From positions 1 to 64,000 of the forward strand of contig NZ_JAUXOD010000024.1 in NCBI RefSeq assembly GCF_030682515.1: a DNA stretch of 64,000 nt. Direction: 5' to 3'. A program made the translations under genes and the position numbers. Origin of the DNA: Hoeflea sp. (GTDB lineage Bacteria; Pseudomonadota; Alphaproteobacteria; Rhizobiales; Rhizobiaceae). The number at the start of each line of letters is the position of its first letter. Within the stretch, counting starts at the first letter, position 1. Under the pieces are notes generated by a model. The model was not told where the DNA came from, ran no database searches, and saw only the letters and a list, made by a program, of their open reading frames with translations. Of the stretch, positions 30,022 through 54,604 are shown piece after piece.

Positions 30022-30807
30022 TCAATAGTGCACCGGTTGCTTCAACTTGAAGGCGGAGAGGCCGCGGGCGAGGTCACGCCCATCCACATGCAGCGCGAAC
30101 CGTGCGATTTCGGCCGCGATCCGGCTTTGGCGCTCTGGTGTCCGGGCTCCCTTTCCGGTCAGGAACTTGATGTGGCCGACCGCCTCCGGGCTCAGGCGGC
30201 TGATGTCCCGGGCAATCTCCATCGCCCGGGACATCAGGTGTCCGGGAGGAACAACTTCGTTGATCAGGCCCCAGTCCCTGAGCGTTTCCGCCTCGACCAG
30301 CCTGGCGGTGTAGAACAGTTCCGAGGCCCGGGAGGGCGATATCCGCTCGCCCAGCCGGACGGTGGCGCCGGCTGCGGGAACGATGCCGTAGCGGACATGA
30401 CCGTCCCCGATCCGGACCCCTGCCGCCGCAATGAGAATATCGCAGCAGAGCAGCGTCTCCAGACCGCCGGCGATGGCGGTGCCGTTGACCGCGCCGATCA
30501 CCGGAACCGGAAGGTCCTCAAGCAACTGCAGGACGCCCATGTTGTAGCCCAGATACGCGAGCAGAGTCTGCTTGCTGGCATTGAGCGCCTGTTCGAACTC
30601 GACCAGGTCGCCCCCGGCCGAAAAAGCACGCCCGGCGCCGGTCAGGATCAGAACGCGAAGGCCCGGCAGCGTTGCCAGGTGGAGGAGCCGGCTTTCCAGA
30701 GACTTCATCATCGCCTGCGACATGGCGTTGAGGCTGTCGGGGCGGTTGAGCGTCAGCACGGCAATGCCGTCCTCGACAGTGAGCGTGACCGAGTCCATCC
30801 TACTCAT
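30022..30807 (-). CDS. Enoyl-CoA hydratase/isomerase (crotonase family)
   Basis: 261 residues, last gene of module A. Oxyanion-hole segments LTGAGRAFSAGGDL and NGTAIAGGLETLLCCD (CoA-binding crotonase signature). The usual second catalytic Glu of hydratases falls in the stretch IVPAAGATVRLGERI, where it is not obvious, so an isomerase or hydrolase activity is possible. Start ATG 30807 overlaps the stop of the preceding CoA ligase (ATGAGTAG); an in-frame ATG three codons later is an alternative. It would act on an acyl-CoA made by that ligase. Confidence 0.85.
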   Translation of the reverse strand: MSRMDSVTLTVEDGIAVLTLNRPDSLNAMSQAMMKSLESRLLHLATLPGLRVLILTGAGRAFSAGGDLVEFEQALNASKQTLLAYLGYNMGVLQLLEDLPVPVIGAVNGTAIAGGLETLLCCDILIAAAGVRIGDGHVRYGIVPAAGATVRLGERISPSRASELFYTARLVEAETLRDWGLINEVVPPGHLMSRAMEIARDISRLSPEAVGHIKFLTGKGARTPERQSRIAAEIARFALHVDGRDLARGLSAFKLKQPVHY

Positions 30808-32692
30808 CCTTTGGTGCGCGGCGTATCGCATAGGATTGCGGCAATGGCTTGAGCGCCGCGTCCAGTTCGGTAAGCTGCCGGGCGCTCGCGCCGCTGACTG
30901 TTACGTCAACGACCGTGTGCTTCCGCTCGTCCAGACGCACATCGACCTGGACCTGAACTTCGGGTCCGCAGATTCGCACGGCCTCCAAGCGAACCTTCTC
31001 GCTGATCGCCATGTCGCGCAACGTCGGCTTGAACAGCTTGCCCACGGCGGTGACCGGCAGCGCATCGATCCGCAGGATGCTCTTCGGCCGCGCGGGCGGC
31101 TCGTGGACATGGGAGTCCAGATGCTGACGGAGTTGGACCATGTCCAAATCGGCTCCGGCGGTGGCTACGACGAACAGCGCCGGGACCTCGCCGGCATACT
31201 GGTCCGGCATGCCGACGGCGGCGCTGATCTCGACGCCGGCGAACTGGTTGGCGACGTCCTCGATGGCGGCCGGGTCGATGTTGTGGCCGCTTCGGACGAT
31301 CAGGTCCTTCTCGCGTCCGGTGAGAAACAGCCGTTCGTCCGGCGTGAGATATCCGACATCGCCCGTGGTCAACCATCCATCCGGGTCGAGCGTTCCCACA
31401 TTGTGGGCGGGATCGAGATAGCCCGGGAAGACCTGCGGTCCCCGCACCTGGACAAGGCCGCTCTCGTTCGGGTCGCATATCTCGGGCGTGGCCGAATGAA
31501 GGCGAAGGATGCGTGTCTCGGAGAAGGGCGCGCGAAACCCGACGCTGCCGCTGATCGGCGTGCCGTGGCCGGGATTGAAGGCAATCGCCGCCGCCGTCTC
31601 GGTCATACCGTAGGTCTCATAGAGCGTGATGCCGGTCGCTGCGGAGAAGCGGCTGCCGACCGCCTTGGGCAGCACCGCTCCGCCGGTGACGGCCATGCGC
31701 ACGCTGGACACATCCGCTCCCGGTTTCCAGCTGTTGGTCACGGCGCCGATCGAGGTGGGAACGCCGCCCACGACGGTCGCCTTGTAATGGGCGACGATGT
31801 CCCAGTAGCGCTCGACGACCGGCGCAAGCCGCATTCCGTAGGGCGAGGGCACGATGACATGCCCGCCGGCGGCGATCACCGACAGGCCCACAGTCATGGT
31901 TCCGCCGACATGGAAGAAGGGAAATCCGTTCAGGACCACATCCCCCTGGTCATAGCCGAAGACCTGGGCGAAGCCGAACGCGGCATGGATGTGGTTTCCG
32001 TGGGTCAGCCGCACCAGTTTCGGTCGTCCGGTGGTGCCGCCGGTGTGAAACAACGCGCAAATGTCGTCGCGATCGGCGGTCGGCTCGAACCCGAGCCCAT
32101 CCCCTCCGCAGCCGGCCAGGGCGTCGTCGAGGCGCATGTAGCCGCTGAGACCCTCGGTGTCGCCGCCGATGACGATGACGTGGCGCAGCGACGGCACCGC
32201 TTCCAGCGCGCCAAGCGCCTTGGACCAGCACATCTCGTCGATCTGCCGGGCCGGGACGACGAGCAGCATCGCTCCTTCGGCCGTGAGCAGATCGAAGATC
32301 GCCTGCCGGCTCAGCAGGTAATTGATCGAGCTCGCCGCGCCCGCGACCTGGGCGCCCCAGAGCAGGGAGGGCAGATCGGCAAGGGTCGGCGCCAGGAATG
32401 CGGCGACGCCCTGGCTGGGGGCCAGTCCCAGCTGGTGAAACATGTTCGCGGCCCGCGTGATCTCCGAAAGCATCTCGTGGTGGGTGAGGGTGACGGCGAT
32501 ATCTGTCGGGTCTTCCGATCGCAGGACCGTCAGCGCCTTCGCGTCGCCCGCATGGTGCGCGGTGGCCCGAAACAGATCGTAGATGTTCCGCGCGGTTACG
32601 AGTTCGTCATAGGGGCGGCTCTCGATCGCGACGATGTCTTCGATGGTCCCGACCCGTGCCACGGGCCGTGTGGTGTTCAGGCGCCGTTCCAT
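30800..32692 (-). CDS. AMP-forming acyl-CoA synthetase (module A)
   Basis: 630-residue ANL ligase, longer than usual. P-loop FHTGGTTGRPKLV, A5 YETYGMTETAA, WLTTGDVGYL, hinge GREKDLIVRSGHNIDP, and the A10 lysine in PVTAVGKLFKP, followed by an extra 70-residue C-terminal extension. The hinge SGHNIDP replaces the common SGGENIYP. The start ATG 32692 (MERRLNTTRP) overlaps the ATPase stop (ATGA). It would load an acid produced from the imported compound onto CoA, next to the crotonase-family enzyme. Confidence 0.88.
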   Translation of the reverse strand: MERRLNTTRPVARVGTIEDIVAIESRPYDELVTARNIYDLFRATAHHAGDAKALTVLRSEDPTDIAVTLTHHEMLSEITRAANMFHQLGLAPSQGVAAFLAPTLADLPSLLWGAQVAGAASSINYLLSRQAIFDLLTAEGAMLLVVPARQIDEMCWSKALGALEAVPSLRHVIVIGGDTEGLSGYMRLDDALAGCGGDGLGFEPTADRDDICALFHTGGTTGRPKLVRLTHGNHIHAAFGFAQVFGYDQGDVVLNGFPFFHVGGTMTVGLSVIAAGGHVIVPSPYGMRLAPVVERYWDIVAHYKATVVGGVPTSIGAVTNSWKPGADVSSVRMAVTGGAVLPKAVGSRFSAATGITLYETYGMTETAAAIAFNPGHGTPISGSVGFRAPFSETRILRLHSATPEICDPNESGLVQVRGPQVFPGYLDPAHNVGTLDPDGWLTTGDVGYLTPDERLFLTGREKDLIVRSGHNIDPAAIEDVANQFAGVEISAAVGMPDQYAGEVPALFVVATAGADLDMVQLRQHLDSHVHEPPARPKSILRIDALPVTAVGKLFKPTLRDMAISEKVRLEAVRICGPEVQVQVDVRLDERKHTVVDVTVSGASARQLTELDAALKPLPQSYAIRRAPKDE

Positions 32693-34188
32693 CAGTGCAC
32701 CGCCGCATACATGATGGTTTCCTCGTCCGCCTTGCGGCCTTCGAACTCCTCGACAATGCGGCCCTGGCGGCAAACCAGGATGCGGTCGGAAATCTGCAGG
32801 ATTTCCGGGAGGTAAGAGGAGATGACCATGACTGCAACGCCTTCGTCTGCAAGCCGGTTGATGAGCTGGTGGATCTCGGCAATGGCGCCGACATCGACGC
32901 CGCGTGTCGGCTCGTCAAAGATGATGAGCCTGGGTTTCTGGACCAGTGCCTTGGCGACGACGACCTTTTGCTGGTTGCCGCCGGACAGCTCGATGACGCG
33001 CATGTCGTTGTCGAGCGCGCGCACTTTCAAGGCCTCGCTCCAGTGCCTGGCGATCGCCTTCATCTCGCGGATGCTGACCGTCCAGGAGCGCGTCTGGCCG
33101 CCCGCCAGGGCGCCCAGATGGATGTTCTCGGCAATCGACATGGTCTCGAAGAAGCCTTCAAGCTTGCGATCCTCTGTGACATAGATGATCCCGTCTCGCA
33201 CGGCCGGACGCGGCACCCGGTAGCGCACCGGGTTCCCGTACAGCCGCACCTCCCCGCCATGGAAGAAGTCGCGCTTCATCACGCCGGCGATCACCTTGGC
33301 GGCTTCCGTCCGCCCCGATCCGATCAGCCCGAAGACGCCGGTGATCTGGCCGGCGAAGATCGAGAAGGAGGTGTTGCGCACGACATTGTTCATCGACAGG
33401 TTCTGCACGCTCAGCACCTTGTGGCCCGGACGGCGCACCTTGCGTTCGGCATGCGCTCCATACAACTCGTCCGAGAGCGTGCGCCCAACCATGGCGCGGA
33501 CGATCTTCTCCCGGTCGAAGGCCGCGGTCTCGTCGGTGACCACATGCCCGCCATCCCGCATGACGGTGATCCGGTCGGAGATCTGCAGCGCCTCTTCCAG
33601 CGCGTGGCTGATGAAGATGATCGAAACGCCCCGTGTGCGCAGCCGCTCCACCAGCGAGAAGAACTGGTGTTTTTCCTCGGGCGTCAGCGTCGCGGTCGGT
33701 TCGTCGAAAATGATGACGCGGGCGTTGTGATGCACGGCGCGGGCGATCTCGACCATCTGCTTCTGGCCGGCGCCGAGACTGGAGACGAGCGCCGTCGGAT
33801 CGACATGAAAGTTCAGCGACTGCAGGAACTGCTGGCCGGCGATGTAGATGCCGCGGAGGCGGTGGAAGTGCTTGTCGTCGGTGAGGTAGATGTTCTGCGC
33901 CACCGTCAGCGACGGCACCAGGCTGGTCTCCTGGTAGACCATGGCGATGCCGCGCTTGAGCGCCTCGGACGGCGTGGGCAGGTCGATGATCTGGCCGTCG
34001 AGCAGGATCTCGCCGGAGCTCGGCTGGACCACGCCCGCCAGCATCTTGGTAAGCGTCGACTTGCCGGCGCCGTTTTCGCCCAAGAGCGCATGCACCTCGC
34101 CCTCCTCGAGCGTGAAGTTGACATTTTGCACGGCTGGAACGCCGCGATAGGTCTTGGTGCCGTTTCTGAGTTCGAGCAGCACGGTCAT
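32692..34188 (-). CDS. CUT2 sugar-type ABC ATPase, two-domain (module A)
   Basis: 498 residues with two tandem ATPase domains as in RbsA/MglA. Domain 1: Walker [11 protein letters not shown], signature [15 protein letters not shown], Walker B VIIFDEPTATLTPEE. Domain 2: degenerate P-loop GLIGSGRTEAAK, signature [15 protein letters not shown], Walker [16 protein letters not shown]. Energises import through the two module-A permeases. Its ATG overlaps the upstream propeller gene stop and its stop overlaps the next ATG, so the genes are translationally coupled. Paralogue of 49090-50586. Confidence 0.92.
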   Translation of the reverse strand: MTVLLELRNGTKTYRGVPAVQNVNFTLEEGEVHALLGENGAGKSTLTKMLAGVVQPSSGEILLDGQIIDLPTPSEALKRGIAMVYQETSLVPSLTVAQNIYLTDDKHFHRLRGIYIAGQQFLQSLNFHVDPTALVSSLGAGQKQMVEIARAVHHNARVIIFDEPTATLTPEEKHQFFSLVERLRTRGVSIIFISHALEEALQISDRITVMRDGGHVVTDETAAFDREKIVRAMVGRTLSDELYGAHAERKVRRPGHKVLSVQNLSMNNVVRNTSFSIFAGQITGVFGLIGSGRTEAAKVIAGVMKRDFFHGGEVRLYGNPVRYRVPRPAVRDGIIYVTEDRKLEGFFETMSIAENIHLGALAGGQTRSWTVSIREMKAIARHWSEALKVRALDNDMRVIELSGGNQQKVVVAKALVQKPRLIIFDEPTRGVDVGAIAEIHQLINRLADEGVAVMVISSYLPEILQISDRILVCRQGRIVEEFEGRKADEETIMYAAVH

Positions 34189-35276
34189 GGCAACGATCCT
34201 TCTTCACCGGTTCCGGCATGGCTCGCGACCACGACGCCGTCGCCGCTGGCCGCGATGAAAACCCGGCCCTGGTGCTCGCCCATGTCGGTCACGCCATGGG
34301 TTGCGCCGTCGGCGCGGCTGTGCAGGCTCTCCACGGGCTGGAACGCACGGTCAAGCCGCACGCACAGACCGGACGACAGGGTCGGCGCCCAGGGCTTGAG
34401 CAGGCCCAACTGCTTGACGCTGCCGCCCTGCAGGGGTTCGTAGAAGCTGCGCCCCGTGCGCAGGGACGGCGCGATCCAGAACGGTCTCGGCACCTCGGCG
34501 ATCATGCGGGTCTTGTAGGCACGCTCGCGCAGCACGAATTCGACGAGCTGGCTGCGCGGCGCGAAGATCGCCAGCCAGGCGCCGTCCGCCGCTGGCGCGA
34601 GCCTGCCCGGATAGCCAGGCAGGTCGGCATGGACCACGACCGGTTCGCCGCCGGTGAGCGGCAGCCGCGCCAGCCGGTGCTTCCAGGCCTCGCTGAATAC
34701 GATCGAGTCCCCGTCGAGCGCCAGGCCGGCAGGCCAGGCAAGCCTGTCGGCGAGGCGCAGGCTTGCGCCGCTGTTGCGGTCGATGCGCCAGATGCTGCCC
34801 GAGGCGTTGCGCTGCAACAGGTCGAGCTGCCAGTCTTCAGCAGGATTGGTCGCCGAACCGTTGGCGAGAAAGATCGCGGACGGCGAAACGGCGATGGCGG
34901 TGATTGAGCGCAGGCCTTCGGGAACGCGGTAGCCTTGGCCTTCGGTGGAGCCGCCCTCGATCAGGATCTCGCCGGTGTCGAGGACGACGGCCAGGCCCTC
35001 GTTTCCGATCGCGGCGATGCAGGCAATGCGGCCGTCGAATTTGCGCCAGGGCTGCCAGTCCGTGCCGTCGGCAAGCCGGTAGAGCGTGTTGCCGGCTGAG
35101 GCAACGTGCGCGCCGAAGAGAAAGGCAAGCGAATCGACACCCGCAAGCGGCAGGCGCGTTTCGGCCTCGTCGAGCCGACGGTTCGGCCGCAGCGCGCCGT
35201 CGAGCGCCGGCACGGTGACCGCCGCGTCGCCGCGTCCGGTCAGATTGTCGATGGTCCTCAGAAGTGCGCCGATCAT
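34185..35276 (-). CDS. Free-standing SMP-30-like propeller, catalytic ligands lost (module A)
   Basis: 363 residues, no signal peptide, so cytoplasmic. It aligns through most of its length with the propeller half of the adjacent fused permease: WPAGLALDGDSIVFSEAW matches FPNGICMTHDGQSFLFAETW and LPGYPGRLA matches LPGYPDNIN. At the three metal-ligand positions it has Asp (GVDS in place of GPED), Ala183 in place of Asn, and Gly224-Arg225 in place of Asp-Asn. It therefore probably binds or regulates rather than hydrolyses. It shares KPWAPT..S.GL and the SLHSRADGATHGVTD segment with its module-B counterpart, defining a subfamily. Start overlaps the fused gene's stop. Confidence 0.8.
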   Translation of the reverse strand: MIGALLRTIDNLTGRGDAAVTVPALDGALRPNRRLDEAETRLPLAGVDSLAFLFGAHVASAGNTLYRLADGTDWQPWRKFDGRIACIAAIGNEGLAVVLDTGEILIEGGSTEGQGYRVPEGLRSITAIAVSPSAIFLANGSATNPAEDWQLDLLQRNASGSIWRIDRNSGASLRLADRLAWPAGLALDGDSIVFSEAWKHRLARLPLTGGEPVVVHADLPGYPGRLAPAADGAWLAIFAPRSQLVEFVLRERAYKTRMIAEVPRPFWIAPSLRTGRSFYEPLQGGSVKQLGLLKPWAPTLSSGLCVRLDRAFQPVESLHSRADGATHGVTDMGEHQGRVFIAASGDGVVVASHAGTGEEGSLP

Positions 35277-37387
35277 GTCCGCCCCCAGTAGGATTCAGGT
35301 CCGGTCCAGCCGGTATCCGCACCCTCGAGCTTCAGCCGGCCGATGCGATTGTTGGAAATGCCGCCGATGTAGAGATGCCCCTTGTGCTCGCGCATGGACG
35401 TGATCATTGGGTGGTTCTCCCCGCCCAGATCCCACATCACATCGAGAATTTGGCCGGTCTCGTCGAAACGGACGACGCAGCCGGTGTTGATGTTGGGGTA
35501 GAGCCACTCGTCGGGGGCTATGCGCCGGGCCATGCGCTTGCGGAAGCCGGGCATGCGCATGGAAAGATCCACCGAGGGCGTGCGCATGCCGACCAGCGCC
35601 AGCCAGAAGGTGCCGTCGGAAGCCCGGTTGATGTTGTCGGGATAGCCCGGCAGGTTGGGGATCACCGGCTCGACCCTTCCCTTCCTGGGGCCGTCGAAAT
35701 AATAGCGGCTGACGCGGCAGGCCCAGGTCTCGGCGAAAAGGAACGACTGGCCGTCATGGGTCATGCAGATGCCGTTGGGGAACACAAGGTTCTTCAGGAT
35801 CGTCTGCGTGGAATTGGTTTTCGGATCGTAGCAGATGATGCGTCCGTTGCCGCGCGCTTCCAGGCTGTCGACCGGCCATTCGTGCATGTCGTAGCGCACG
35901 GTCGCCTCGCTGAAGAAGATGCGTCCGTCGGGCGCCACGTCGAGGTCATCGGCGAGCCGCAGGCGGGAATCGTCGATGATCGTGAACAGCGACCGGTTGG
36001 TCTCGTCCGTCAGCTTCTCGACGACGCGTTGCTTCGTCACCCGATAAAGCCCCATGCCGCCGACACAGACCAGCAGCGCGCCATCGGGCGCGAACGCCAT
36101 GCCGAGCGGACGGCCGCCGATATGGGCATAGAGCTCCTGCTCTTTGTAGTCCGGTGCCAGGAAGCGGACGATGTCGCCGGTGCGGTTGCCGGCGTAGATG
36201 TGGTCATCCTCGTCGAGGATCACATCCTCCGGACCGTCGATGGCGCCCAGCCCGATCAGGTCGACCGGCCGCAGCTTGTCGTTGAGCGCGTACGGCGAAT
36301 CCGCCTCGGTTGTGGGCGCCGGCGGCAAGGGTGCGAAGGTCGGCGAGACATAGACATTGGACAACAGCTTGTGACGGTTCTTGAGCCAGCGCACGTCGAT
36401 CGCCACCGCCGCCAGAAGCACCAGTCCGAGCAGCAGCGAATTGGCGCCGCTGGTCACGCCGAGCCGCACCATGGAGTTGACCATGATCATCACCGTGATG
36501 GAGCCGATGAGCGCCTTGATGGCGGAGCCGCGGCCGCCGCCCAGGCTGTTGCCGCCGAGAACTGCAGCCGTCAGCGCGGTGATCTCGAGGCCGATACCGG
36601 TGTCCGCACCGGCGCCGCCGAGGCGGGAGGCAAACAGCAGGCCCGACAGGGCGCACAATGCTCCTGAGATGACATAGGTCATGCAGACCACGCGGCGAAC
36701 AGGGATGCCGACATTGTGGGCCGACCGGCGCGAGCCGCCGGTCGCCAGGACATGCCATCCGATCCGGGTGCGGCTGAGAAGCAGATGCAGGATGGCGGCG
36801 ATGACCACCGTCATGAACACGCTGAACGGCATGCCCAGAAGGAAGCCTTCACCCAGATAATACCATGCGTCGGACTCGATGAAGCCGCCGGCGATCGCGA
36901 CGGAATATTTGAGCAGCAGGATGTCGACGATGGCGCGCACGATGATCAGCGTCACCAGGGTCGTCAGGAAGGCGCGCAACCGCAGATATCCCACGAGGAC
37001 GCCGTTGACGAGGCCGACCGCGGCGCCGCAGGCAATGGTCGCGGCGATGGTTGCGGGCATCGACCACTCCGCCACCGAGAGAAGCGTCAGGGCCACGATG
37101 TTGCCAAGGGCAAAGGTCGAGCCGACACTCAGGTCGATGCCGCCGGCCACCATGACGATCATCAGCGCCAGCACCAGCAGGCTGAACTCGCCCCACTGCC
37201 TGAGCAAGTTGGCAAGGCTCGAAGCCCCGAAGAAATCGGGAATCGCGGATCCGAAGACCGTCACGACCGTCATCAGGATGAGGATCGGAATGGCGTTGTC
37301 GATCCAGCGCTTGGTCAGGATCTCGCCGAGGAGGTGATCTGGCACTGCGCGATAACGCCAGCGCATGAGCGTGTCGGATACGGACAT
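35273..37387 (-). CDS. CUT2 permease fused to a strictosidine-synthase/SMP-30-like propeller (module A)
   Basis: 704 residues in one frame. Residues 1-335 are a RbsC-type permease (MIVMVAGGIDLSVGSTFALG; VLGGNSLGGGRGS) with about ten spans. A short basic turn (KNRHKLL) and a Pro-rich linker (about 340-372) lead into a six-bladed propeller (about 373-704) of the strictosidine-synthase/APMAP/SMP-30 clan. Metal-ligand positions are kept: Glu387 (GPED), Asn538 (FPNG), Asp584 (GYPDN). RbsC-type permeases end in the cytoplasm, so the propeller should face the cytosol and could hydrolyse a lactone or ester as it is imported. The same fusion occurs at 45917-48046. Confidence 0.88.
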   Translation of the reverse strand: MSVSDTLMRWRYRAVPDHLLGEILTKRWIDNAIPILILMTVVTVFGSAIPDFFGASSLANLLRQWGEFSLLVLALMIVMVAGGIDLSVGSTFALGNIVALTLLSVAEWSMPATIAATIACGAAVGLVNGVLVGYLRLRAFLTTLVTLIIVRAIVDILLLKYSVAIAGGFIESDAWYYLGEGFLLGMPFSVFMTVVIAAILHLLLSRTRIGWHVLATGGSRRSAHNVGIPVRRVVCMTYVISGALCALSGLLFASRLGGAGADTGIGLEITALTAAVLGGNSLGGGRGSAIKALIGSITVMIMVNSMVRLGVTSGANSLLLGLVLLAAVAIDVRWLKNRHKLLSNVYVSPTFAPLPPAPTTEADSPYALNDKLRPVDLIGLGAIDGPEDVILDEDDHIYAGNRTGDIVRFLAPDYKEQELYAHIGGRPLGMAFAPDGALLVCVGGMGLYRVTKQRVVEKLTDETNRSLFTIIDDSRLRLADDLDVAPDGRIFFSEATVRYDMHEWPVDSLEARGNGRIICYDPKTNSTQTILKNLVFPNGICMTHDGQSFLFAETWACRVSRYYFDGPRKGRVEPVIPNLPGYPDNINRASDGTFWLALVGMRTPSVDLSMRMPGFRKRMARRIAPDEWLYPNINTGCVVRFDETGQILDVMWDLGGENHPMITSMREHKGHLYIGGISNNRIGRLKLEGADTGWTGPESYWGRT

Positions 37388-39447: not shown

Positions 39448-39709
39448 GTTTCTCCTCCCACAGAGCATGTCCGGCAGACTTCGGAACCGAAGGGCCATGG
39501 CGGGAAGTTAAATCCGTTCAGGGGGAAGGTCTTTTCCCAGAATGCATGACACTTGCTTGAGCGCGCAGTCGCGGTGGTGCTTGCGGACGGGCATCGGCGG
39601 CGCTACTCTCCCGCGATTAAAAATAGCTGTGCGATCAGGAAAAAGGGTGAGAACGGTCGACGGGGGGTCGAACCCTTACCCTCTGAGCGCTTGGGAATGG
39701 GAGGGGGCC
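39448..39709. promoter_or_regulatory. Divergent control region, module A / AraC regulator, with a palindrome
   Basis: 262 non-coding bases between divergent genes. It contains the palindrome CTTCGG-AA-CCGAAG (39479-39492), 32 bases upstream of the module-A start codon, and a GGGAGGGGG ribosome site before the AraC start. AraC-type proteins usually bind direct repeats, so the palindrome may belong to another factor. The promoter boxes are not clear. Confidence 0.45.
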
Positions 39710-45916: not shown

Positions 45917-48046
45917 ATGTCAGTCGACTTCAAATTCGCCAGCCTGCGGAAGCAGCCGGTCCCGCGTTTCATGCTGTCCCCGCGGCGCATCCTTGCCGAT
46001 GTCCTGTCGAGCGGCTGGGTCGAGAGCATGATCCCCTTCCTGGCATTCATCTGCGTGGTCGTGGGCGTGGCGGTGACGACGCAGGATTATTTCGTCGCCT
46101 CCAATCTGAGGAACCTCGCGCAGTACTCGGCAGATGGCGGGCTGATCGTGCTCGCCATGCTGATCGTCGTCGCCGTCGGCGGAATTGATCTTTCGGTGGG
46201 CTCGAACTTCGCCATGTCGGCCTTCGTGGCGCTCTTCTGCTTTCACATCCTGCAGCTTCCGGTGCCCGTGGTCCTGGTCGCAAGCCTCGGCTGCGGCGCC
46301 GTGATCGGGGCGACGAACGGCCTGCTGGCCGGCCTGATCGGCTGCGGCGCGCTTTTGACCACGCTTGCCACCATGATCACCGTGCGCGGCATCTTCACGC
46401 TGTCGTCGCAGGCGCAGATGGTGGAAATCTCCACCAGTGCCCGGATCGACGATCTGTGGGACTGGATCGGGTTCGAGAAGATCCTCACCATGCCGATCGG
46501 CTTCTGGGTGCTGCTCGCCGTGGCGATCCTGATCTTCGTCATGTTCCGTCAGTCGGCCTTCGGCTGGCATGTGCTGGCGGTGGGCGGCAATCGGAAGGCT
46601 GCGCGCCACGGCGGCATCAGGGTCAAGGTCACGGTCTTCCTGTCCTATGTGCTGACCGGCCTCATTGTCGGCCTGTCCGGCTTCCTGTTTGCCGCCCGCC
46701 AGAACAGCATCAGCGCCGATACCGGCATCGGCATGGAGTTCTTCGTGCTCACCGCGCTGGTCGTGGGACTGGGCGGTTTCGTGCCGGGCCGCGGCGCCGT
46801 GGTGCCGGTGCTGATCGGGTTTGCGACCATCTACATCTTCAACAATGCGATGATCAATTCGGGCTTTCGCGGCGATTTCGTCCAACTCTGCATGGGCGCG
46901 ATCATCATCCTGATCCTGGCGATCGACGTGAAATTCCGGAAGAACCGGCACCGCCTGCTGGCCTCGACCTATCTCGATCCCGTCAAGGTCACGCTTGCGC
47001 CCACCCGGGGCATGGCTGGCCTGATGCCGCACGAGATAGCCCCGAAACTCGCCCTGGCGCGGATCCTGGGCGCAGGACAACTCGACGGTCCCGAGGATGT
47101 CATTCTTGACCGCGACGGCAATCTTTACTGCGGCAACCGCGATGGACGGATTCTCAAGCTGTCCGGACCGGACCATTCCGACATCAGCGTTGTCGCCAAG
47201 ATCGGCGGCCGGCCGCTGGGCCTCGCGTTTGACCCCGAAGGCCGGATGGTGGCCTGCGTGGCGGGCATGGGGCTCTTGCGCGTGACGCTTGACGGAGCGG
47301 TGGAACTCTTGACCGACCAGACCGGGCGCAGCCTGCTCAGCGTCCAGGACGACACCTCGATCCGGATGGCCGACGATCTCGATATCGCACCGGACGGCAC
47401 GATCTATTTCACCGATGCGACCAAGCGGTACGACATCGACAATTGGGGCCTCGACCTGCTCGAGGGGCGGCCCAACGGCCGGCTGTTGAGCTACGATCCG
47501 AGAACGCGCAAGACCCGGACGGTCTGCGACAATCTCGTCTTTCCGAACGGCGTCTGCATCACCCATGACGGCAAGTATCTTCTCGTGGCGAGCACCTGGT
47601 CCTGCTCGATCCTGATCTTCGACCTGGCCGACCTTGCCGCCGGACCGCGGATCTTTCTCGACGGCCTGCCGGGCTATCCCGACAACATCAACCGGTCGTC
47701 GGATGGCGGATACTGGATTGCTCTGGCGGGCATGCGCAACGCCATCCTCGACCAGGCGATGAAGTATCCAGGCCTCAGGCAGCGCATGACGAAGCGGGTG
47801 CCGCCGACCAACTGGCTGTTCGGCAATCTCAACATTGGCGGCGTGCTGAAGATCGATGGCAGCGGCAGGATCGTCGACGCGCTGTGGGATGCGCCGGACG
47901 GGCCACTCTACATGATCACCTCGATGCGCGAACACGAGGGCGCGCTATATCTGGGGGGCGTGACCAACGACAAGATCGGGCGGCTGCAGCTCGCCTACGC
48001 CGATCGCCAGTGGACCAGCCAGCAGAGCTACTGGGGGAAAGGCTAG
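45917..48046 (+). CDS. CUT2 permease fused to a strictosidine-synthase/SMP-30-like propeller (module B)
   Basis: 709 residues. RbsC-type permease half (about 1-345: VVAVGGIDLSVGSNFAMSAF, VVGLGGFVPGRGAVVPV), a basic KNRHRLL turn and linker, then a six-bladed propeller (about 378-709). Metal-ligand positions Glu393 (GPED), Asn544 (FPNG) and Asp589 (GYPDN) are intact. Same architecture as 35273-37387 and the same junction motif. The propeller lacks its own signal or extra membrane span, so it should face the cytoplasm. Ligand chemistry is inferred: lactone or ester opening or an analogous hydrolysis on entry. Confidence 0.88.
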   Translation: MSVDFKFASLRKQPVPRFMLSPRRILADVLSSGWVESMIPFLAFICVVVGVAVTTQDYFVASNLRNLAQYSADGGLIVLAMLIVVAVGGIDLSVGSNFAMSAFVALFCFHILQLPVPVVLVASLGCGAVIGATNGLLAGLIGCGALLTTLATMITVRGIFTLSSQAQMVEISTSARIDDLWDWIGFEKILTMPIGFWVLLAVAILIFVMFRQSAFGWHVLAVGGNRKAARHGGIRVKVTVFLSYVLTGLIVGLSGFLFAARQNSISADTGIGMEFFVLTALVVGLGGFVPGRGAVVPVLIGFATIYIFNNAMINSGFRGDFVQLCMGAIIILILAIDVKFRKNRHRLLASTYLDPVKVTLAPTRGMAGLMPHEIAPKLALARILGAGQLDGPEDVILDRDGNLYCGNRDGRILKLSGPDHSDISVVAKIGGRPLGLAFDPEGRMVACVAGMGLLRVTLDGAVELLTDQTGRSLLSVQDDTSIRMADDLDIAPDGTIYFTDATKRYDIDNWGLDLLEGRPNGRLLSYDPRTRKTRTVCDNLVFPNGVCITHDGKYLLVASTWSCSILIFDLADLAAGPRIFLDGLPGYPDNINRSSDGGYWIALAGMRNAILDQAMKYPGLRQRMTKRVPPTNWLFGNLNIGGVLKIDGSGRIVDALWDAPDGPLYMITSMREHEGALYLGGVTNDKIGRLQLAYADRQWTSQQSYWGKG

Positions 48047-48049: not shown

Positions 48050-49093
48050 ATGTTTTTCAGATCCAGACGTGAGGCACCGCCGGCGATGACGCTGGAAGGC
48101 GTTCTCGGCCCCAACACGGTCATCGACGATGCAGAAGGCTTGAAGGTCGAAGCTCCGCAGGCGCTGTGCGTGGTGGATGGCTCCCGGTTGCTCATCAGCT
48201 CGGGCAATGCGGTCCTCGCCATCTCCCGATGGGGCGACCAGCCCCAGCCCTGGTGCGTGTTCGACCAGCCGGTGACTGCGCTCTCCGCCAGCCCGGCAGG
48301 CACCGTCGGCATCGGCCTCGCCGACGGCAGCTTCTCAGTCCGCGACCGGGCGGGATCGGTTCTGGCGGGCTGGGGGCGGCCGGAGAGTCTTGCCTCGGTG
48401 ACCGACTGCCTGTTCGTCTCCGAAGACGAGATCGCCCTTGTTGACAGCGGCTACCGGGCCGGCGAGGACATCCTGTCGCGGGCGCCCTGGGACGAGACCG
48501 GACGCGGGCAGGTCGTTATGATCAACCGCAACGGCGCCATGCGCCGCCTGGCGGCGGGCCTGCATTGCCCGATGGGACTGGCCCGCGACGCGGATGGCGA
48601 GCTGATCGTCAGCCTGCTCGAGCGGGCAGCAATCGTCGATCTCGCGGGCAAGGTCAGGCAGCCGGGGTTCCCGGCCTATCTCGGCCGGGTCCGCGCCACG
48701 GAGAGCGGCTATCTTCTCTCCTGCCTGTCGCGGCGCGACCCGCTCATCGAGTTTTTGAAGACCGAGGCGGAGTTCGTGGCCGAAATGAAGGCCACGATCG
48801 ATCCCCGGCACTGGATCTCGCCCCGCGCCCATCCCGAATTCAGCCATGACTTCCCCATCGAGCTCGGCGCCACGCGCCTGTTCGGAGAGATCAAGCCCTG
48901 GGCCCCGTCCTTTTCCTACGGCCTCGTGATTGCGACCGACACAGCTTTCATCCCCACCGGTTCGGCGCATTCGCGCGCCAATGGCGCCCGCCATGCGATC
49001 AGCGACACTGTCGAGTGGAACGGGGACGTGATCGCGGTCAGCCGGGCCAGCGGCGAAGTTCTCCGCTTTTCGTTTGCGAGGGAGGCCGCATGA
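48050..49093 (+). CDS. Free-standing SMP-30-like propeller, catalytic ligands lost (module B)
   Basis: 347 residues, no signal peptide, starting 3 bases after the fused gene. Aligned with the fused propeller, CPMGLARDADGELIVS replaces FPNGVCITHDGKYLLV (Met175 for the ligand Asn), and FPAYLGRVRA replaces PGYPDNINRS (Gly212-Arg213 for Asp-Asn); GPED is APQA. The same Asp-Asn to Gly-Arg change occurs in the module-A protein. Also shares KPWAPSFSYGL and the SAHSRANGARHAISD segment with it. Most likely a non-catalytic partner or sensor. Its last 4 bases overlap the ATPase start. Confidence 0.8.
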   Translation: MFFRSRREAPPAMTLEGVLGPNTVIDDAEGLKVEAPQALCVVDGSRLLISSGNAVLAISRWGDQPQPWCVFDQPVTALSASPAGTVGIGLADGSFSVRDRAGSVLAGWGRPESLASVTDCLFVSEDEIALVDSGYRAGEDILSRAPWDETGRGQVVMINRNGAMRRLAAGLHCPMGLARDADGELIVSLLERAAIVDLAGKVRQPGFPAYLGRVRATESGYLLSCLSRRDPLIEFLKTEAEFVAEMKATIDPRHWISPRAHPEFSHDFPIELGATRLFGEIKPWAPSFSYGLVIATDTAFIPTGSAHSRANGARHAISDTVEWNGDVIAVSRASGEVLRFSFAREAA

Positions 49094-50586
49094 CCCGCCA
49101 GCCGATCATCAGCCTGGAAAATGTCACCAAGAGCTACGGCGGCATCAACGCGCTCGAGAACGCCAATTTCGAGCTCTATCCCGGCGAGATCCATGCGCTT
49201 GCCGGCGAGAACGGCGCCGGCAAGTCGACCCTGTGCAAGCTGATCGCGGGCGTCATCGCGCCGAGCGAAGGAACCTTGCGCATCAATGGCGAGGTGGTGA
49301 AGTTCTCCGCGCCCAAGGACGCGAGCAGGCACGGCATCTCAATGGTCTATCAGGAGACGAGCCTCGTGCCGCAGCTCACCGTCGCGCAAAACATGGTGCT
49401 GGGCCGCGAGAGCGCCTTCAACTCGGTGCGCAACGTGCGCAATTCGGCACGGCAGGTGCTGCAGAGGCTCAATTTCAAGGTTGAGCCGTCGCAGCTTGCC
49501 GGCACGCTGTCGACCGCCAAGCGGCAGATGGTGGAAATCGCCCGGGCGGTCTTGAACCAGGCCCGGGTGATCATCCTCGACGAGCCGACGGCGGCGCTGA
49601 CGCCCGAGGAGACCGATCACCTGTTCGACCTGATGCGGACTTTGCAGGCCGATGGCGTCGCCATGATCTTCATCTCGCACGCGCTCGAGGAGGCGCTCAA
49701 CCATTCGGACCGGATCTCGGTGCTGCGCAATGGCCGGCTGATGGTCACCGGCGAGGCGAGCGACTTCGACCGCAAGCGCCTCATCCACCACATGATCGGC
49801 GAGGAGCTGAACGAGCGGTTGCATGTGCCAAGGGCTCCGCATGCGGAGCGCTCGGCGCTGCCGGTGCTGCGGGTCGAGAACATCCGCATGGGAGCGATGG
49901 TCAACAACATGTCGTTCTCGGTCTTTCCCGGCCAGATCACCGGCATCGCCGGCCTGATCGGCTCGGGGCGAAGCGAGGTCGCCAAGGTGATCATGGGCCA
50001 CACCAAGCGCAATTTCGGCGGCGGCAGGATCTGGCTCGATGGCCGCGAGGTGCGCTACAGTCTCCCCGCGCAGGCGGTCGCCGACGGCATTGCCTATGTC
50101 AGCGAAGACCGCAAGCTCGACGGCTTCTTCGACACGCTGAATGTCGCCGAGAACATCGGGCTGGGCTGGCTTGCCAAGTTCGGCCGGCGGCGTCTGCTCG
50201 CGCCACTTCAGACGATGCGCGCGCTGTCGCGGGAGTGGGAGGGACGGCTGTCGATCCGCTCCATCGGCACGGATCAGTCGGTGTTGCATCTGTCGGGCGG
50301 CAACCAGCAGAAGGTGGTGATCGCCAAATCCCTGGTGCAGCAGCCCAGGCTGGTGATTTTCGACGAACCCACCCGCGGCGTCGATGTCGGCGCCATCGCC
50401 GAGATCCGTCAGATCGTCCGGCAATTCGCCGAAAGCGGGGCCGGCGTGATCCTGATCTCCTCCTACCTGCCTGAGATCCTCGACCTGTCGGACCGGATCC
50501 TGGTCGCCAAGAGCGGCACCATCGTGGCCGAATTCGCACGGTCGGATGCAACAGCGGAGAAGATCCTGCATGCCGCGATTCACTGA
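49090..50586 (+). CDS. CUT2 sugar-type ABC ATPase, two-domain (module B)
   Basis: 498 residues, the same length as the module-A ATPase. Domain 1: [10 protein letters not shown], signature [15 protein letters not shown] (degenerate LSGGQ), [15 protein letters not shown]. Domain 2: [45 protein letters not shown] 49090 overlaps the propeller stop (ATGA); an in-frame ATG 49015 would lie inside the propeller gene. Followed by a hairpin and then the thiolase gene 74 bases on. Confidence 0.92.
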
Positions 50587-50660: not shown

Positions 50661-51848
50661 TTGAGAGAAGCAGTCATCGTCAGCACCGCCCGCACCGGGA
50701 TGGGCAAGGCCTACCGCGGCAGCCTGAACGCCATCAAGTCGCCAACGCTCACCGGCCATGTGCTCAAGCACGCAATCGAACGGGCGGGCGTCGAGCCGGG
50801 CGAGATCGAGGATTTCGTTCTGGGAACCGTGCTGGGCGCGGGCACCGCGGGGATGAATCTCGCGCGCAACGCCGTCTTCGCCGCAGGTGCGCCGGTGACC
50901 ATCTCCGGGCAGACGATGGACCGCCAGTGCGCCTCGGGTCTGATGGCGGTGGCGACCGCCGCCAAGCAGATCATGGTCGACGGCATGGATGTCGTCGCCG
51001 CCGGCGGCCAGGAGAACATCTCGGCCTTGCAGGATCAGTATTTCCGTTGGGTCCAGGCCGACGCCGATCCGAACGTGACCGGCCATGTGCCGCACGCCTA
51101 CATGCCGATGCTGCAGACGGCCGAATACGTTGCGAAGAAATTCGGCGTGAGCCGGGAGGTGCAGGACGAGTACGCGCTGCAATCCCAGCTGCGCACGGCA
51201 AAGGCCCAGGCCGCCGGCCTGCTCGATGACGAGATCGTGCCGATTACCACGACGATGATGGTCAAGGACAAGATGACCGGCGAGGTGACCGGCCAGGAGG
51301 TGACGCTCGAGCGGGACGAAGGCAACCGGCCGCAGACGACGCTCGAGTCGCTCGCCCAACTGAACCCGGTCATCGACGGCGGCGTGATCACGGCGGGCAA
51401 TGCCAGCCAGCTCTCCGACGGCGCCTCGGCCTGCGTCCTGATGGATTCCAAGCTGGCCGAACGGCGCGGCCTTAAGCCCCTGGGCATCTATCGCGGCATG
51501 GCGGTCGCCGGCTGCCCGCCCGAGGAGATGGGCATCGGCCCTGTCCATGCGGTTCCGAAGCTGCTCGAGCGGCATGGGCTGAAGGTCGGTGACATAGGCC
51601 TTTGGGAGCTCAACGAGGCCTTCGCGGTGCAGGCGCTCTATTGCCGCGATCATCTCGGGATCGATCCCGAGATCTACAACGTCAATGGCGGCGGGATCTC
51701 GATCGGTCATCCCTATGGCATGACCGGTGCGCGCCTGGTGGGCCATGCGTTGATCGAGGGCCGGCGCCGCGGGGTGAAGTTCGTGGTCGTCACCATGTGC
51801 ATCGGCGGCGGCATGGGCGCGGCGGGACTGTTCGAAGTCAACCATTGA
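50661..51848 (+). CDS. Thiolase (acetyl-CoA C-acyltransferase)
   Basis: 395 residues from TTG 50661, preceded by AGGAGAAGAAC. Nucleophile Cys90 (MDRQCASG), the HP-containing [14 protein letters not shown] segment and the second catalytic cysteine in MCIGGGMG are all present, with a length typical of homotetrameric biosynthetic/degradative thiolases. It would cleave a beta-ketoacyl-CoA with CoA (or the reverse), consistent with a beta-oxidation-like route for the imported compound. No matching thiolase exists in module A, which has a crotonase-family enzyme instead. Confidence 0.9.
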
Positions 51849-51899
51849 GATATCTCCGCGCCTCATGCGGCAGGCGGGTTCCGGAGACCAGGAAAGAGT

Positions 51900-53573
51900 G
51901 TGGGAAGAAGCCAAGTGACACCTCAAGACATGACCTCAGCGGCGGCCTCGGCCGCCGCGACCCTGCCGGGTGCCGACGTGGCGATCGACGGGGCGATGCA
52001 GTCCTTCGGCCTGACGCTCGACAGGTTCCTCACCCATGCCGCCAAGTGGCACCGGGACGCCGAGGTGGTGACTGCCGGAGCGGGCGGGGCTGTCGAGCGC
52101 GTCTCCTACGCCGGTTTGAAACAGAGGGCGCTGGGTGTCTCGCGGATCCTCGCTGATCTCGGTGTCACGCCCGGGGCCCGGGTGGCGACCCTTGCCTGGA
52201 ACACGCAGGCGCATCTCGAAGCCTGGTATGCGATCATGGGCATGGGGGCTGCCTGCCACACGCTCAACCCGCGCCTGACCGCCGAGCAGACCAGCGCCAT
52301 GCTGCGCCAGTCCGGCGCCCGGATCCTCATCGTTGCCGGCGACCTGATGCCGCTTGCCGCCCGGATCGCGGCGCATGCGCCGGCCGTGACCCGGATCCTG
52401 GTCATTGACGACACGGCAGGCGAAGGGCCGGCTAGCGGCCATCCCGTTCAGGTGTCCGCGCTCGATCCGGCCGCGGGCGCGGCAGGAGAGCCGGTGGCCT
52501 GGGGCGGGTTCGACGAGACTGTGTCATCCGGGCTCTGTTTCACCTCCGGCACCACCGGCGCGCCCAAGGGCGTCACCTACACCCATCGCTCGAGCTATCT
52601 TCACACCCTGCGCATGCTGCAGGCCGATGTGCTTGGCATCACCCGGCTGGATGCGGTGCTGGCCGCGGTGCCGATGTTCCACGCCAATGCCTGGGGTCTG
52701 CCCTTCGCCGCCCCCGCCGTCGGCGCCAGGCTGGTGCTGCCGGGGCGGATGACCGACGGCGCGAGCCTGGCAAGGCTGATCGTTTCCGAAGCGGTGACGG
52801 TCGCGGCGGGCGTCCCGACTGTCTGGCTCGGTCTGGTCGAGCATCTCGAGGCGAGCGGCGGCGAGGTGCCGAGCCTGAAGCGCATCCTCGTCGGCGGATC
52901 GCCGCTTGCGCCGGCCCTGATGGAGCGCATCGAGCGCCGGCTTGGCGTGACGGTTCAGACCAGCTGGGGCATGACGGAGCTGTCGCCATTGGGGACCATG
53001 TCGCTGCCCGGTGATCCCGGCAGGAAAGCCTCGGTGTCGGGTCAGCCGTCGGTGGGCCTCGATCTGCTCTTGACCGACGCCGGGGGGCGCGCGCTCGCCG
53101 AGCAGCGAAACACGGAAGGGCATTTGCGGGTCAAGGGTGCTGCCGTCGTCGAGCGCTATCTGGGAGACAGCAATCCCGCCATCGACGCGGACGGCTGGTT
53201 CGCCACCGGCGATCTGGCGCGGATCGACGACCGGGGAAATCTGATGATCACCGGCCGCGCCAAGGATCTCATCAAGTCGGGCGGCGAATGGATCAACCCC
53301 GCCGAAATCGAGGCCGTTGTCGGAGCGCTTCCCGAGATCTCGCTGGCCGCGGTCATCGGCCGGGTCGACCCGAAATGGGGCGAGCGGCCGGTGCTGCTGG
53401 TGACCGTCCGCAAAGAGCAGGTGATCAGCGACGAGGCGCTGCTCGCCGCGCTCAGCGGCAAGGTCGCATCCTGGTGGGTGCCCGACACGATCGTCCGGCT
53501 CGAGAACATGCCGATGGCGGCGACGGGGAAAATCGACAAGCTGCGCCTCAAGAAGGAGCATGGCGGCAACTGA
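51900..53573 (+). CDS. AMP-forming acyl-CoA synthetase (module B)
   Basis: About 557 residues of the ANL superfamily, similar to medium-chain or methylthiopropionate-type ligases: P-loop FTSGTTGAPKGVTYTHRSS, A5 TSWGMTELSP, WFATGDLA, hinge GRAKDLIKSGGEWINP and A10 PMAATGKIDKL. GTG 51900 is preceded by GGAAAGA; GTG 51915 (after GGAAG at 51903) is a good alternative start, and ATG 51930 a third. Functional counterpart of the module-A ligase, though from a different subfamily (hinge SGGEWINP versus SGHNIDP). Confidence 0.88.
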   Translation: MGRSQVTPQDMTSAAASAAATLPGADVAIDGAMQSFGLTLDRFLTHAAKWHRDAEVVTAGAGGAVERVSYAGLKQRALGVSRILADLGVTPGARVATLAWNTQAHLEAWYAIMGMGAACHTLNPRLTAEQTSAMLRQSGARILIVAGDLMPLAARIAAHAPAVTRILVIDDTAGEGPASGHPVQVSALDPAAGAAGEPVAWGGFDETVSSGLCFTSGTTGAPKGVTYTHRSSYLHTLRMLQADVLGITRLDAVLAAVPMFHANAWGLPFAAPAVGARLVLPGRMTDGASLARLIVSEAVTVAAGVPTVWLGLVEHLEASGGEVPSLKRILVGGSPLAPALMERIERRLGVTVQTSWGMTELSPLGTMSLPGDPGRKASVSGQPSVGLDLLLTDAGGRALAEQRNTEGHLRVKGAAVVERYLGDSNPAIDADGWFATGDLARIDDRGNLMITGRAKDLIKSGGEWINPAEIEAVVGALPEISLAAVIGRVDPKWGERPVLLVTVRKEQVISDEALLAALSGKVASWWVPDTIVRLENMPMAATGKIDKLRLKKEHGGN

Positions 53574-53710
53574 CCCGACTTCTCCCGGGAGGGGGTCGGT
53601 TGCGGCCGCGGATTGGCGCGCTCGTGAGACCACCATGCCCGATCATCTTGAAGGAATTCACCCGTGAGTGAGTGTACCAACGAGCGGAACCGCTCAACCA
53701 GGAGAAAAGC

Positions 53711-54604
53711 ATGAAACTGAAGGATCGCACCGCCATCGTCACCGGAGCCGGCGGAGGGCTGGGCCGATGCCATGCGCTGCTGCTCGCCCGCCAGGGCGCC
53801 CGCGTCGTCGTCAACGACATGAACGCCGAGAGTGCCGAGCGCGTTGCCGGGGAAATCAAGGCCGGGGGCGGAGAGGCGATCGGGGTTGCGGCTTCCGTCA
53901 CCGACGAGGCCGGAGTTGCGGCGATGGTCGAGCAGGCGATGGGCGCCTGGGGGCGCATCGACATTCTCATCAACAATGCGGGGATCCTGCGCGACAAGAG
54001 CTTCGCCAAGATGGAGATCGCCGATTTTCGCGCGGTGGTCGATGTCCACCTGATGGGGGCGGTGATCTGCTCGAAGTCGGTCTGGGAGATCATGCGCAAG
54101 CAGAATCATGGCCGCATCGTCATGACCACGTCCTCCTCCGGGCTCTACGGCAATTTCGGCCAGTCCAATTACGGCGCCGCCAAGATGGCGCTGGTGGGCC
54201 TGATGCAGACCCTGTCGCTCGAAGGCGAGAAATACGGCATCCGCGTCAATTGCCTGGCGCCCACGGCGGCGACGCAGATGACCGACGGCGTGTTGTCGCC
54301 CGACGCGCTCTCGCAGCTTGCACCGGAGCTCGTCAGCCCCGGGCTCCTGGCGCTGGTGGGTGACGCGGCGCCGACACGGGCGATCCTGTGCGCGGGCGCC
54401 GGCCATTTCGCCCGCGCCCATGTCACGCTGACCCAAGGGATATACATCGGCGGGACTGGCGAGGCCGCTGATCGCGTGGTCGCGCGGTGGAACGAGATCG
54501 GCGACCGCGCGGGCGAGATCGTCCCGGGCTACGGATTTGCCCAGGCCGAACGGGAAATGGCGAGTTCGGGCGCCAGCCCCGCCTCGATCGCCGCACGGAC
54601 ATAG
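53711..54604 (+). CDS. SDR, 3-hydroxyacyl-CoA dehydrogenase-like (module B)
   Basis: 297 residues from ATG 53711 after AGGAGAAAAGC. TGAGGGLG cofactor loop, NNAG (INNAGILRD), Ser in TTSSSGLYG and YGAAK (YxxxK). The long C-terminal extension (about residues 200-297, including TPAATQ-like regions) resembles the dehydrogenase half of multifunctional peroxisomal beta-oxidation protein 2 and its bacterial relatives. It probably oxidises a 3-hydroxyacyl-CoA in the module-B pathway; direction inferred. Last gene before a strong hairpin. Confidence 0.86.
   Translation: MKLKDRTAIVTGAGGGLGRCHALLLARQGARVVVNDMNAESAERVAGEIKAGGGEAIGVAASVTDEAGVAAMVEQAMGAWGRIDILINNAGILRDKSFAKMEIADFRAVVDVHLMGAVICSKSVWEIMRKQNHGRIVMTTSSSGLYGNFGQSNYGAAKMALVGLMQTLSLEGEKYGIRVNCLAPTAATQMTDGVLSPDALSQLAPELVSPGLLALVGDAAPTRAILCAGAGHFARAHVTLTQGIYIGGTGEAADRVVARWNEIGDRAGEIVPGYGFAQAEREMASSGASPASIAART

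Follow-up and report, generated by a model that had tools for sequence, protein, structure and literature searches.

A conserved CUT2-type importer module with a permease fused to a hydrolase-like propeller, possibly serving lactone uptake, in Hoeflea sp. and other bacteria

We analysed a stretch of 64,000 nucleotides of Hoeflea sp. DNA (contig NZ_JAUXOD010000024.1, positions 1 to 64,000; hereafter the window), in which an earlier note, made from the letters alone, had described two diverged clusters with the same five-gene order. Both were recovered from open reading frames (ORFs), Pfam and NCBIfam at the coordinates listed here, each consisting of a permease, a periplasmic binding protein, a permease::propeller fusion, a free propeller and a two-domain ATPase, and comparison with other genomes identified them as two copies of one conserved, co-inherited module. 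The clusters are called modules A and B below.

38473..39447, minus strand: module A permease without propeller, BPD_transp_2, CUT2/RbsC type (Pfam, scanned from 39498; start codon with GGAG upstream)
37454..38449, minus strand: module A periplasmic binding protein, Peripla_BP_4 (Pfam; solved relatives include sugar-binding proteins)
35273..37387, minus strand: module A fusion, 704 aa, CUT2 permease at ~1-345 and strictosidine-synthase-like propeller at ~360-704 (Pfam, model pLDDT 83.9, Foldseek)
34185..35276, minus strand: module A free propeller, most of the metal site gone (model pLDDT 90.2, Foldseek, profile alignment)
32692..34188, minus strand: module A ATPase, two nucleotide-binding domains, RbsA type (Pfam, two ABC_tran stretches)
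43819..44826, plus strand: module B permease without propeller (Pfam, scanned from 43822)
44855..45844, plus strand: module B periplasmic binding protein (Pfam, scanned from 44852)
45917..48046, plus strand: module B fusion, 709 aa, CUT2 permease and propeller (Pfam)
48050..49093, plus strand: module B free propeller, most of the metal site gone (alignment; no Pfam match alone)
49090..50586, plus strand: module B ATPase, two nucleotide-binding domains (Pfam)
39542..40654, plus strand: AraC-type regulator between the modules (Pfam)
40648..42678, minus strand: GAF/PucR-type regulator between the modules (Pfam)
30800..32692, minus strand: AMP-forming acyl-CoA ligase on the module A side (Pfam, scanned from 32698; NCBIfam PRK07529, below cut-off)
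30022..30798, minus strand: crotonase, enoyl-CoA hydratase/isomerase family (Pfam, scanned from 30831; NCBIfam)
42882..43826, plus strand: beta-keto acid cleavage enzyme (BKACE) (Pfam, scanned from 42786; NCBIfam)
50661..51848, plus strand: thiolase, acetyl-CoA C-acyltransferase (Pfam; NCBIfam)
51930..53573, plus strand: AMP-forming acyl-CoA ligase of a subfamily other than module A's (Pfam, scanned from 51900; NCBIfam)
53711..54604, plus strand: SDR, 3-hydroxyacyl-CoA-dehydrogenase-like by context (Pfam, scanned from 53672; NCBIfam)

The two fusions are 44% identical to each other and were the only full-length fusion matches in the window's genome; that of module A, in which Pfam recognised BPD_transp_2 at residues 58-327 and SSL_N, SGL and Str_synth between residues 365 and 600, is 95% identical to its counterpart in Hoeflea sp. 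BAL378. The earlier note had extended the shared order to the CoA enzymes, which differ between the modules, so that the claim held for the five transport genes only. It had also called the two ligases unrelated; both belong to the AMP-binding superfamily PF00501 and are thus distinct subfamilies. The two regulators it had placed between the clusters were recognised by Pfam as AraC-type (plus strand) and GAF/PucR-type (minus strand). A LacI-type regulator with a Peripla_BP_4 ligand domain (55741-56748, Pfam) stands in the same window beside a separate, apparent solute-binding-protein gene (56965-58572, by eye). PADLOC, run on two proteins, gave no matches.

A pattern scan of genome contigs (ADTGIG[LM]E and [IL]DGPEDVI) returned 78 loci, mostly from Alphaproteobacteria by title, of which L086, L087 and L088 were ordinary permeases at 27-30% identity and L081 stops short of the propeller; these four were left out of the order count. 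Plasmid records extended the module to Paraburkholderia and Pantoea. The gene caller missed some genes, and synteny counts were therefore taken from tblastn searches for each part, with identity floors of 40% for permeases, 33% for binding proteins and 50-52% for ATPases, below which more distant transporter genes would escape. By this measure 106 places with a fused propeller were examined, the window not counted: order and strand were exact in all 95 uncut copies (two of them duplicates and one, L066, with a frame break), and the 11 copies cut by a contig or stretch end were all consistent with the same order. A later draw yielded 11 complete and three contig-cut copies, some overlapping places already counted. 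Copies of the module are related by descent and are not independent events; an order shared by 95 of 95 uncut copies is nevertheless far beyond chance and rules out an assembly artefact or a local accident, as the earlier note had held. Permease and propeller shuffled as separate genes, with no co-inheritance of the free propeller, an outcome which that note had set against the idea of a module, were not encountered in the genomes examined.

In unselected draws, both including the window's genome, the fusion was found in 21 of 199 genomes of the order and 10 of 385 genomes of the class, frequencies that may be lower bounds as few candidates per genome were scored. A search with the propeller alone in a draw from the phylum gave matches in 25 of 299 genomes. 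The 15 best matches (at least 51% identity) all lay within open frames of more than 700 residues, and the other 17 places, at 30-40% identity, were more distant propeller homologues; tblastn of the 17 stretches around the latter showed the propeller in 15 and a permease, binding protein or ATPase at the above floors in none. In public plasmid records the fusion is mostly named as an SMP-30/gluconolactonase protein, and the free propeller as strictosidine synthase or hypothetical protein.

For trees, distances and residue counts, 97 modules (95 fetched and the two of the window) were reduced to 94 by dropping L066, with its fusion in two frames, and L138 and L139, the fusions of which are identical to those of L030 and L084; 18 of the 94 rows came from a profile draw of the order and five from a plasmid search. 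Distances were simple corrected p-distances with no species-tree control, and trees were built with FastTree. Where several neighbouring tblastn hits covered a single role, they were joined by their coordinates, a source of noise that affects the binding-protein (SBP) values most; after joining, internal stops were present in four rows (SBP of L041 and L049, PROP of L091 and ATP of L152). Distances of the permease and propeller parts of the fusion correlated at 0.935 and those of the free permease and free propeller at 0.90, with the lowest values (0.63-0.78) for the binding protein; within the 24-module set with the clade A ligase, correlations with the fused permease part went down to 0.64-0.82. 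Mean distances were 0.56 for the fused propeller, 0.54 for the ATPase, 0.84 and 0.86 for the permeases, and 1.25 for the free propeller, the fastest-changing part. The three genes from fusion to ATPase were all called in 69 modules; of these, 37 showed a 4-base overlap between fusion and free propeller and 57 one between free propeller and ATPase.

Five subfamilies, A (24 modules), B (16), C (14), D (5) and E (3), each formed exactly one clade in every one of the six component trees, with support of 0.91-1.0. Clades A, C, D and E were defined by their neighbours, whereas clade B came from the whole-fusion tree and is truly tested only by the trees of the remaining four genes. For A (ligase) and C (reductase), modules that have those neighbours yet fall elsewhere in the tree were first excluded: L018_1, L032 and L148, and L145. 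As the window modules belong to clades A and B, they have diverged as units, which answers the question of co-divergence that the earlier note had raised. The head-to-head pairing it described does not hold generally: in Hoeflea sp. BAL378 the two modules lie on different contigs (L011 and L068), and in L018 and L060 modules A and B adjoin in tandem. In L059 a C module is followed by a B module, and such tandems suggest that the systems can be used together. Three modules in a row, one of them cut, were seen in uncultured Dongia sp. (L034) and two, one cut, in a Mesorhizobium metagenome-assembled genome (L035). L041 and L049 have a tandem pair of binding-protein genes inside one module, perhaps widening the ligand range. 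In Pseudophaeobacter leonis 306 (L066:10001-12111) the module A fusion is split into two frames of 469 and 411 codons, reflecting either decay or a sequencing error.

The fold of the fused propeller was supported by the structural model (pLDDT 83.9) and by Foldseek, in which the best match had an E-value of 1e-15 and the relatives comprised strictosidine synthases, TGW6, lactonase RPA3624, PON1 and SMP-30. By sequence, the best PDB match was TGW6 (8kg3), followed by strictosidine synthases and, more weakly, DFPase and Drp35; similarity to strictosidine synthase is at the level of fold and domain. TGW6 is an indole-3-acetic acid (IAA)-glucose ester hydrolase in which Glu59, Asn167, Asn226 and Asn272 are named as a partly conserved calcium site (PMC10958001). 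These residues align to E387, D481, N538 and N585 of the fusion (by a numbering offset derived in this analysis), and each of the four is present without exception in the fused propellers counted (94/94), E387 lying within the second scan pattern, so that its invariance is partly selected among scanned loci, and the last three outside both patterns. With two acidic residues at the site, compared with one in TGW6, the fused propellers have the metal-ligand residues, at least two of them acidic, of SMP-30/DFPase/PON-type hydrolases, as mapped through TGW6. The fused propeller is probably a hydrolase-type enzyme (lactonase or esterase), as judged by sequence.

Ribose permeases have both termini inside the cell. 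By our own count the fusion model has ten membrane helices, including a short one, ahead of the propeller, and mean net loop charges mostly fitted an N-in/C-in arrangement: +2.4 for the N-terminus, +1.3 for 135-138, +3.9 for the coupling loop, +1 for 278-288 and +4.5 for the linker between the last helix and the propeller, all on the inside, against -0.5, -0.35, -2.2 and -0.9 for outside loops. By this prediction the fused propeller should be cytoplasmic. A periplasmic location was disfavoured by the same charges, though free-standing relatives look anchored and may be periplasmic. Fifteen such free-standing homologues (L119-L133) keep the metal site, with E387 in 15/15, D481 in 13/15, N538 in 15/15 and N585 in 14/15. 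Most of the 15 start with an apparent N-terminal membrane anchor (by eye), and so may lie on the periplasmic side, unlike the fused form.

The free propeller gave a sub-threshold Pfam match to Str_synth in module A and no Pfam match in module B, and was assigned through its predicted structure (pLDDT 90.2), Foldseek and profile alignment, by the last of which it is homologous to the fused propeller at 20% identity. Counting acidic or amide residues, no site position is kept in 4 of 94 free propellers, one in 70, two in 20 and more in none. The position of N585 is Arg in 92/94; that of D481 is Ala in 74/94 and Asp in 17/94 (15 of these 17 in clade B); that of N538 is Asn in 13/94, and that of E387 is acidic in 80/94. 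The free propeller thus lacks the metal-ligand set of SMP-30/DFPase/PON-type hydrolases and, with most metal-site positions lost, looks like a pseudoenzyme paired with the hydrolase-like fused propeller. The option that both propellers are catalytic was rejected, no free propeller keeping more than two of the four positions.

A pointer to a cargo came from clade C, all 14 modules of which adjoin a degradative HMG-CoA reductase (tblastn), the gene that defined the clade. An HMG-CoA lyase was found at 11 of these loci and was missing in L045, L051 and L089 (tblastn). The representative reductase scored 437 bits against TIGR00532 (cut-off 260), and the representative lyase also passed its NCBIfam cut-off. 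Together these two enzymes convert mevalonate to acetyl-CoA and acetoacetate. The reductase occurred in 14 of 199 and 12 of 385 genomes of the unselected draws, 26 together. Beside it stood TRAP genes in 15 (12 strong matches, among them the Pfam-confirmed L167 that supplied the TRAP queries, and three weak ones, L188, L189 and L190, at 28-40% identity), the module in three (one of which, L145, is outside clade C), a Liv-type binding protein in four and no recognised transporter in four, one of these with the reductase on a 5.6-kb contig. In eight of the 12 strong matches the TRAP genes come after the reductase, the position also taken by the module, and in the other four before it; the lyase was not seen in all 12. 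No propeller match was found beside the TRAP loci in stretches of up to ~17 kb, the part of those genomes that was searched. Four genomes have both reductase and fusion, and in three the two lie within 5 kb.

TRAP systems typically bind carboxylates, and would then need no lactonase; an exchange of TRAP genes for a sugar-type importer with a propeller is what would be expected if the module takes up a lactone. The propeller lactonase Drp35 prefers mevalonolactone (478 umol/min/mg) to every other lactone tested, by a factor of 100 or more (PMC6052127). Mevalonate import systems exist in several bacterial species (PMC12405511), and PMC12292504 had no bearing on transport; no description of a mevalonate or mevalonolactone importer of the present type was found in the open-access literature searched. 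Mevalonolactone is the most likely cargo of clade C. At L145 both reductase and lyase adjoin a module outside the clade, so the reductase may have become linked to the module on two occasions. At the reductase loci L166, L177 and L192, a family III CoA-transferase, a crotonase and a Liv-type binding protein replace the recognised lyase and TRAP genes, possibly representing another mevalonate route.

Clade B loci include SDR + BKACE and ligase + SDR + thiolase sets; among the 16 modules, BKACE occurred without the ligase/thiolase set in five, the set without BKACE in two, both in four (window included) and neither within the stretch in five. SDR genes of a cluster other than the window's lie near BKACE in L070, L073, L077 and L078. 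Both sets have a counterpart in the catabolism of deoxyribonate, a 3-hydroxy acid, which together with a lactonase runs through an SDR and BKACE in P. simiae and through a CoA-synthetase, dehydrogenase and thiolase in K. michiganensis, two Burkholderia-type strains studied there having no close homologue of that lactonase (PMC6365646). The best NCBIfam model for the window BKACE was 3,5-dioxohexanoate:acetyl-CoA transferase (NF053538), the cut-off of which was exceeded by all four clade B BKACEs scored of eight others seen. The enzyme of this type makes acetoacetate and acetoacetyl-CoA (PMC10470551), which the thiolase and ligase could use. On the two deoxyribonate routes and the BKACE scores, the lactone of some short 3-hydroxy acid, perhaps a 3,5-dioxygenated one, is placed first as the most likely kind of module B cargo. 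Deoxyribonate as the sole clade B cargo was weakened, as no conserved glycerate kinase was noticed, though no search was aimed at one, and 3,5-dioxohexanoate as the exact intermediate in the window was weakened by the score of the window BKACE, 363 bits against a cut-off of 430.

A relative of the GAF/PucR-type regulator was found with 10 of the 15 clade B modules outside the window, and one of the AraC-type regulator with 22 of 24 clade A modules, a count in which the window itself carries no label. In clade A, 10 of the 22 called ligase genes encode a single ligase-crotonase protein (860-900 residues; L012, L014, L017, L021, L022, L025, L026, L029, L053 and L066), while the two are separate in the window; at least L016 and L020 among the 12 unfused genes appear truncated at a contig end. 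Clade D modules (at L038, L039, L062 and L063) follow a CoA ligase and an acyl-CoA dehydrogenase and, at L038, also an APH-type phosphotransferase and a TRAP large permease. Clade E (L056, L061 and L064) adjoins a fused E1 (alpha-beta) and an E2 of a pyruvate-dehydrogenase-like complex, one representative having been scored and the others assigned by similarity; such neighbours hint at quite a different cargo.

Taken together, we give a probability a little above even to the reading that a neutral lactone enters through a CUT2-type ABC importer and is opened inside the cell by the fused propeller. The binding protein would hand the neutral, ring-shaped ester to the permease pair, and the propeller, on the cytoplasmic side, would open it to the acid by means of a bound divalent metal, trapping the compound in the cell and passing the acid to the enzymes of the neighbouring genes. 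In module A the acid would be CoA-activated and then handled by the crotonase; in module B it would be oxidised by the SDR and then cleaved by BKACE or, once CoA-linked, by the thiolase. The free propeller is probably a structural or sensing partner, perhaps docked under the propeller-less permease. The earlier proposal that a lactone or ester is opened and fed into CoA metabolism gains support from the metal site in 94 of 94 fusions, the mevalonate-type subfamily and the presence of either TRAP genes or the module beside the reductase. Its further idea that the compound is opened during import fares less well: only the fused propeller looks catalytic and, being predicted cytoplasmic, it would hydrolyse the cargo after translocation.

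Several observations weigh against this lactone reading, in which we infer activity, ligand and uptake. TGW6 itself showed no calcium peak (PMC10958001), so the conserved site is no proof of a metal. Strictosidine synthase, among the closest folds, is no hydrolase; it condenses secologanin and tryptamine and has a catalytic glutamate. Two loops misfit the predicted topology, 81-87 (-1, predicted inside) and 309-312 (+0.31, predicted outside), and the site of the free propeller is not fully lost, given the 20 proteins with two positions and the 70 with one. Binding proteins of modules A and B show distant similarity to sugar binders, and their specificity cannot be read from sequence. As for mevalonate, the window's genome gave no match to the degradative HMG-CoA reductase, in G657 the reductase adjoins a Liv-type binding protein and the fusion lies elsewhere, and a lactonase may be encoded in the TRAP genomes outside the stretches of up to ~17 kb. 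In clade B, the BKACE and CoA-ligase sets are not strictly alternating, the window BKACE falls below the 3,5-dioxohexanoate cut-off, and those of L068, L069, L072 and L080, three of which have the layout closest to the window's, were unscored. Finally, a domain common to importers with many different neighbours might be regulatory.

This last point leads to an unlikely alternative in which neither propeller is catalytic and both sense the imported compound in the cytoplasm to gate transport. The predicted cytoplasmic position next to the transporter, the loss of most of the metal site in the free propeller and the use of one architecture in many different neighbourhoods would all suit it, whereas metal-site residues kept unchanged in 94 of 94 fused propellers, against a greater divergence of the permeases, and the absence of a propeller from the searched stretches in which TRAP genes stand beside the HMG-CoA reductase, would not. 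We also regard as improbable that the fused propeller hydrolyses open esters such as an acyl-sugar, with the importer recognising the sugar part and the freed acid being CoA-activated. The IAA-glucose esterase TGW6 as the best PDB sequence match, binding proteins that resemble sugar binders, CoA ligases adjoining both window modules and, at the clade B locus L072, a carboxylesterase gene (PF00135) directly after the ATPase gene are in its favour. It fits poorly with the HMG-CoA reductase clade, which needs free mevalonate, unless mevalonyl esters are the cargo. Moreover, no recurring sugar-kinase family was present among the annotated operon neighbours (most single-locus neighbours being unannotated), a negative qualified by the PF07005/PF17042 kinase a few kb away at the clade C loci L043 and L052. 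That the imported compound is the open acid, the lactonase just repairing lactone formed spontaneously inside, is very unlikely: deoxyribonate and its lactone do interconvert in solution and lactonase mutants are mildly affected on the acid (PMC6365646), but TRAP-type importers should then have a repair enzyme as well, none of the propeller type was found in their stretches, and the fusion to the permease would go unexplained.

Returning to lactone import with hydrolysis by the fused propeller, we give slightly less than an even chance to a broader picture in which uptake and hydrolysis form one machine, the dead propeller senses or gates, import is made irreversible in the manner of phosphorylation by the phosphotransferase system (PTS), mevalonolactone is the first cargo and other subfamilies serve other lactones. 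Importers that alter their cargo chemically are, to our knowledge, represented mainly by the PTS; if the picture is true, a covalently attached, conserved hydrolase would extend cargo-modifying import to the very large ABC superfamily. The HMG-CoA reductase subfamily offers a named candidate cargo and a natural comparison, TRAP genes or the module beside the same enzyme, in a system that public annotation names hide. Isoprenoid engineering would also benefit from an importer specialised for mevalonate or mevalonolactone.

Each part of the module belongs to a known family, and the combination, with its enzyme/pseudoenzyme pair, was absent from the open-access literature searched (titles and abstract openings): as the earlier note had supposed, this gave no description of a permease::propeller fusion and no system joining importer and propeller in this way. 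The module has the composition of CUT2 (RbsABC-type) importers, with a Peripla_BP_4 binding protein, BPD_transp_2 permeases and a two-domain ATPase, and the best NCBIfam matches of the fusion were ribose and arabinose permeases, all below cut-off. It departs from them in having two permeases, one of which bears an enzyme-like propeller, and in the free propeller that is present in all uncut copies; the annotated neighbours of A, B and C modules are mostly acid/CoA enzymes and regulators. With the strictosidine-synthase-like/SMP-30/DFPase propellers (TGW6, Drp35, RPA3624 and PON1) it shares the fold and, as aligned to TGW6, the metal-site positions; the 15 free-standing homologues differ in that no such permease was present in their stretches of ~9.5-13.5 kb, whereas the module's propeller is permease-fused and predicted to be cytoplasmic. 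The two enzyme sets of the oxidative deoxyribonate pathway also occur around clade B, but the uptake described for that pathway is attributed to MFS transporters, and the relevant passages of the source describe no ABC importer or fusion (PMC6365646). In the TRAP + HMG-CoA reductase loci, TRAP genes replace the CUT2 importer, precede the reductase in 4 of 12 cases and have no propeller in the stretch; these loci nevertheless share with clade C the same reductase and often the same MocR-type regulator and lyase, as in L184, where the order is regulator, reductase, TRAP, lyase. Drp35 of Staphylococcus aureus is a separate protein (2dg0, 333 residues), not fused to a permease, and its measured activity compares with one that is predicted from sequence for the fused propellers; it is likewise a propeller lactonase, and its preferred substrate is the cargo proposed for clade C.

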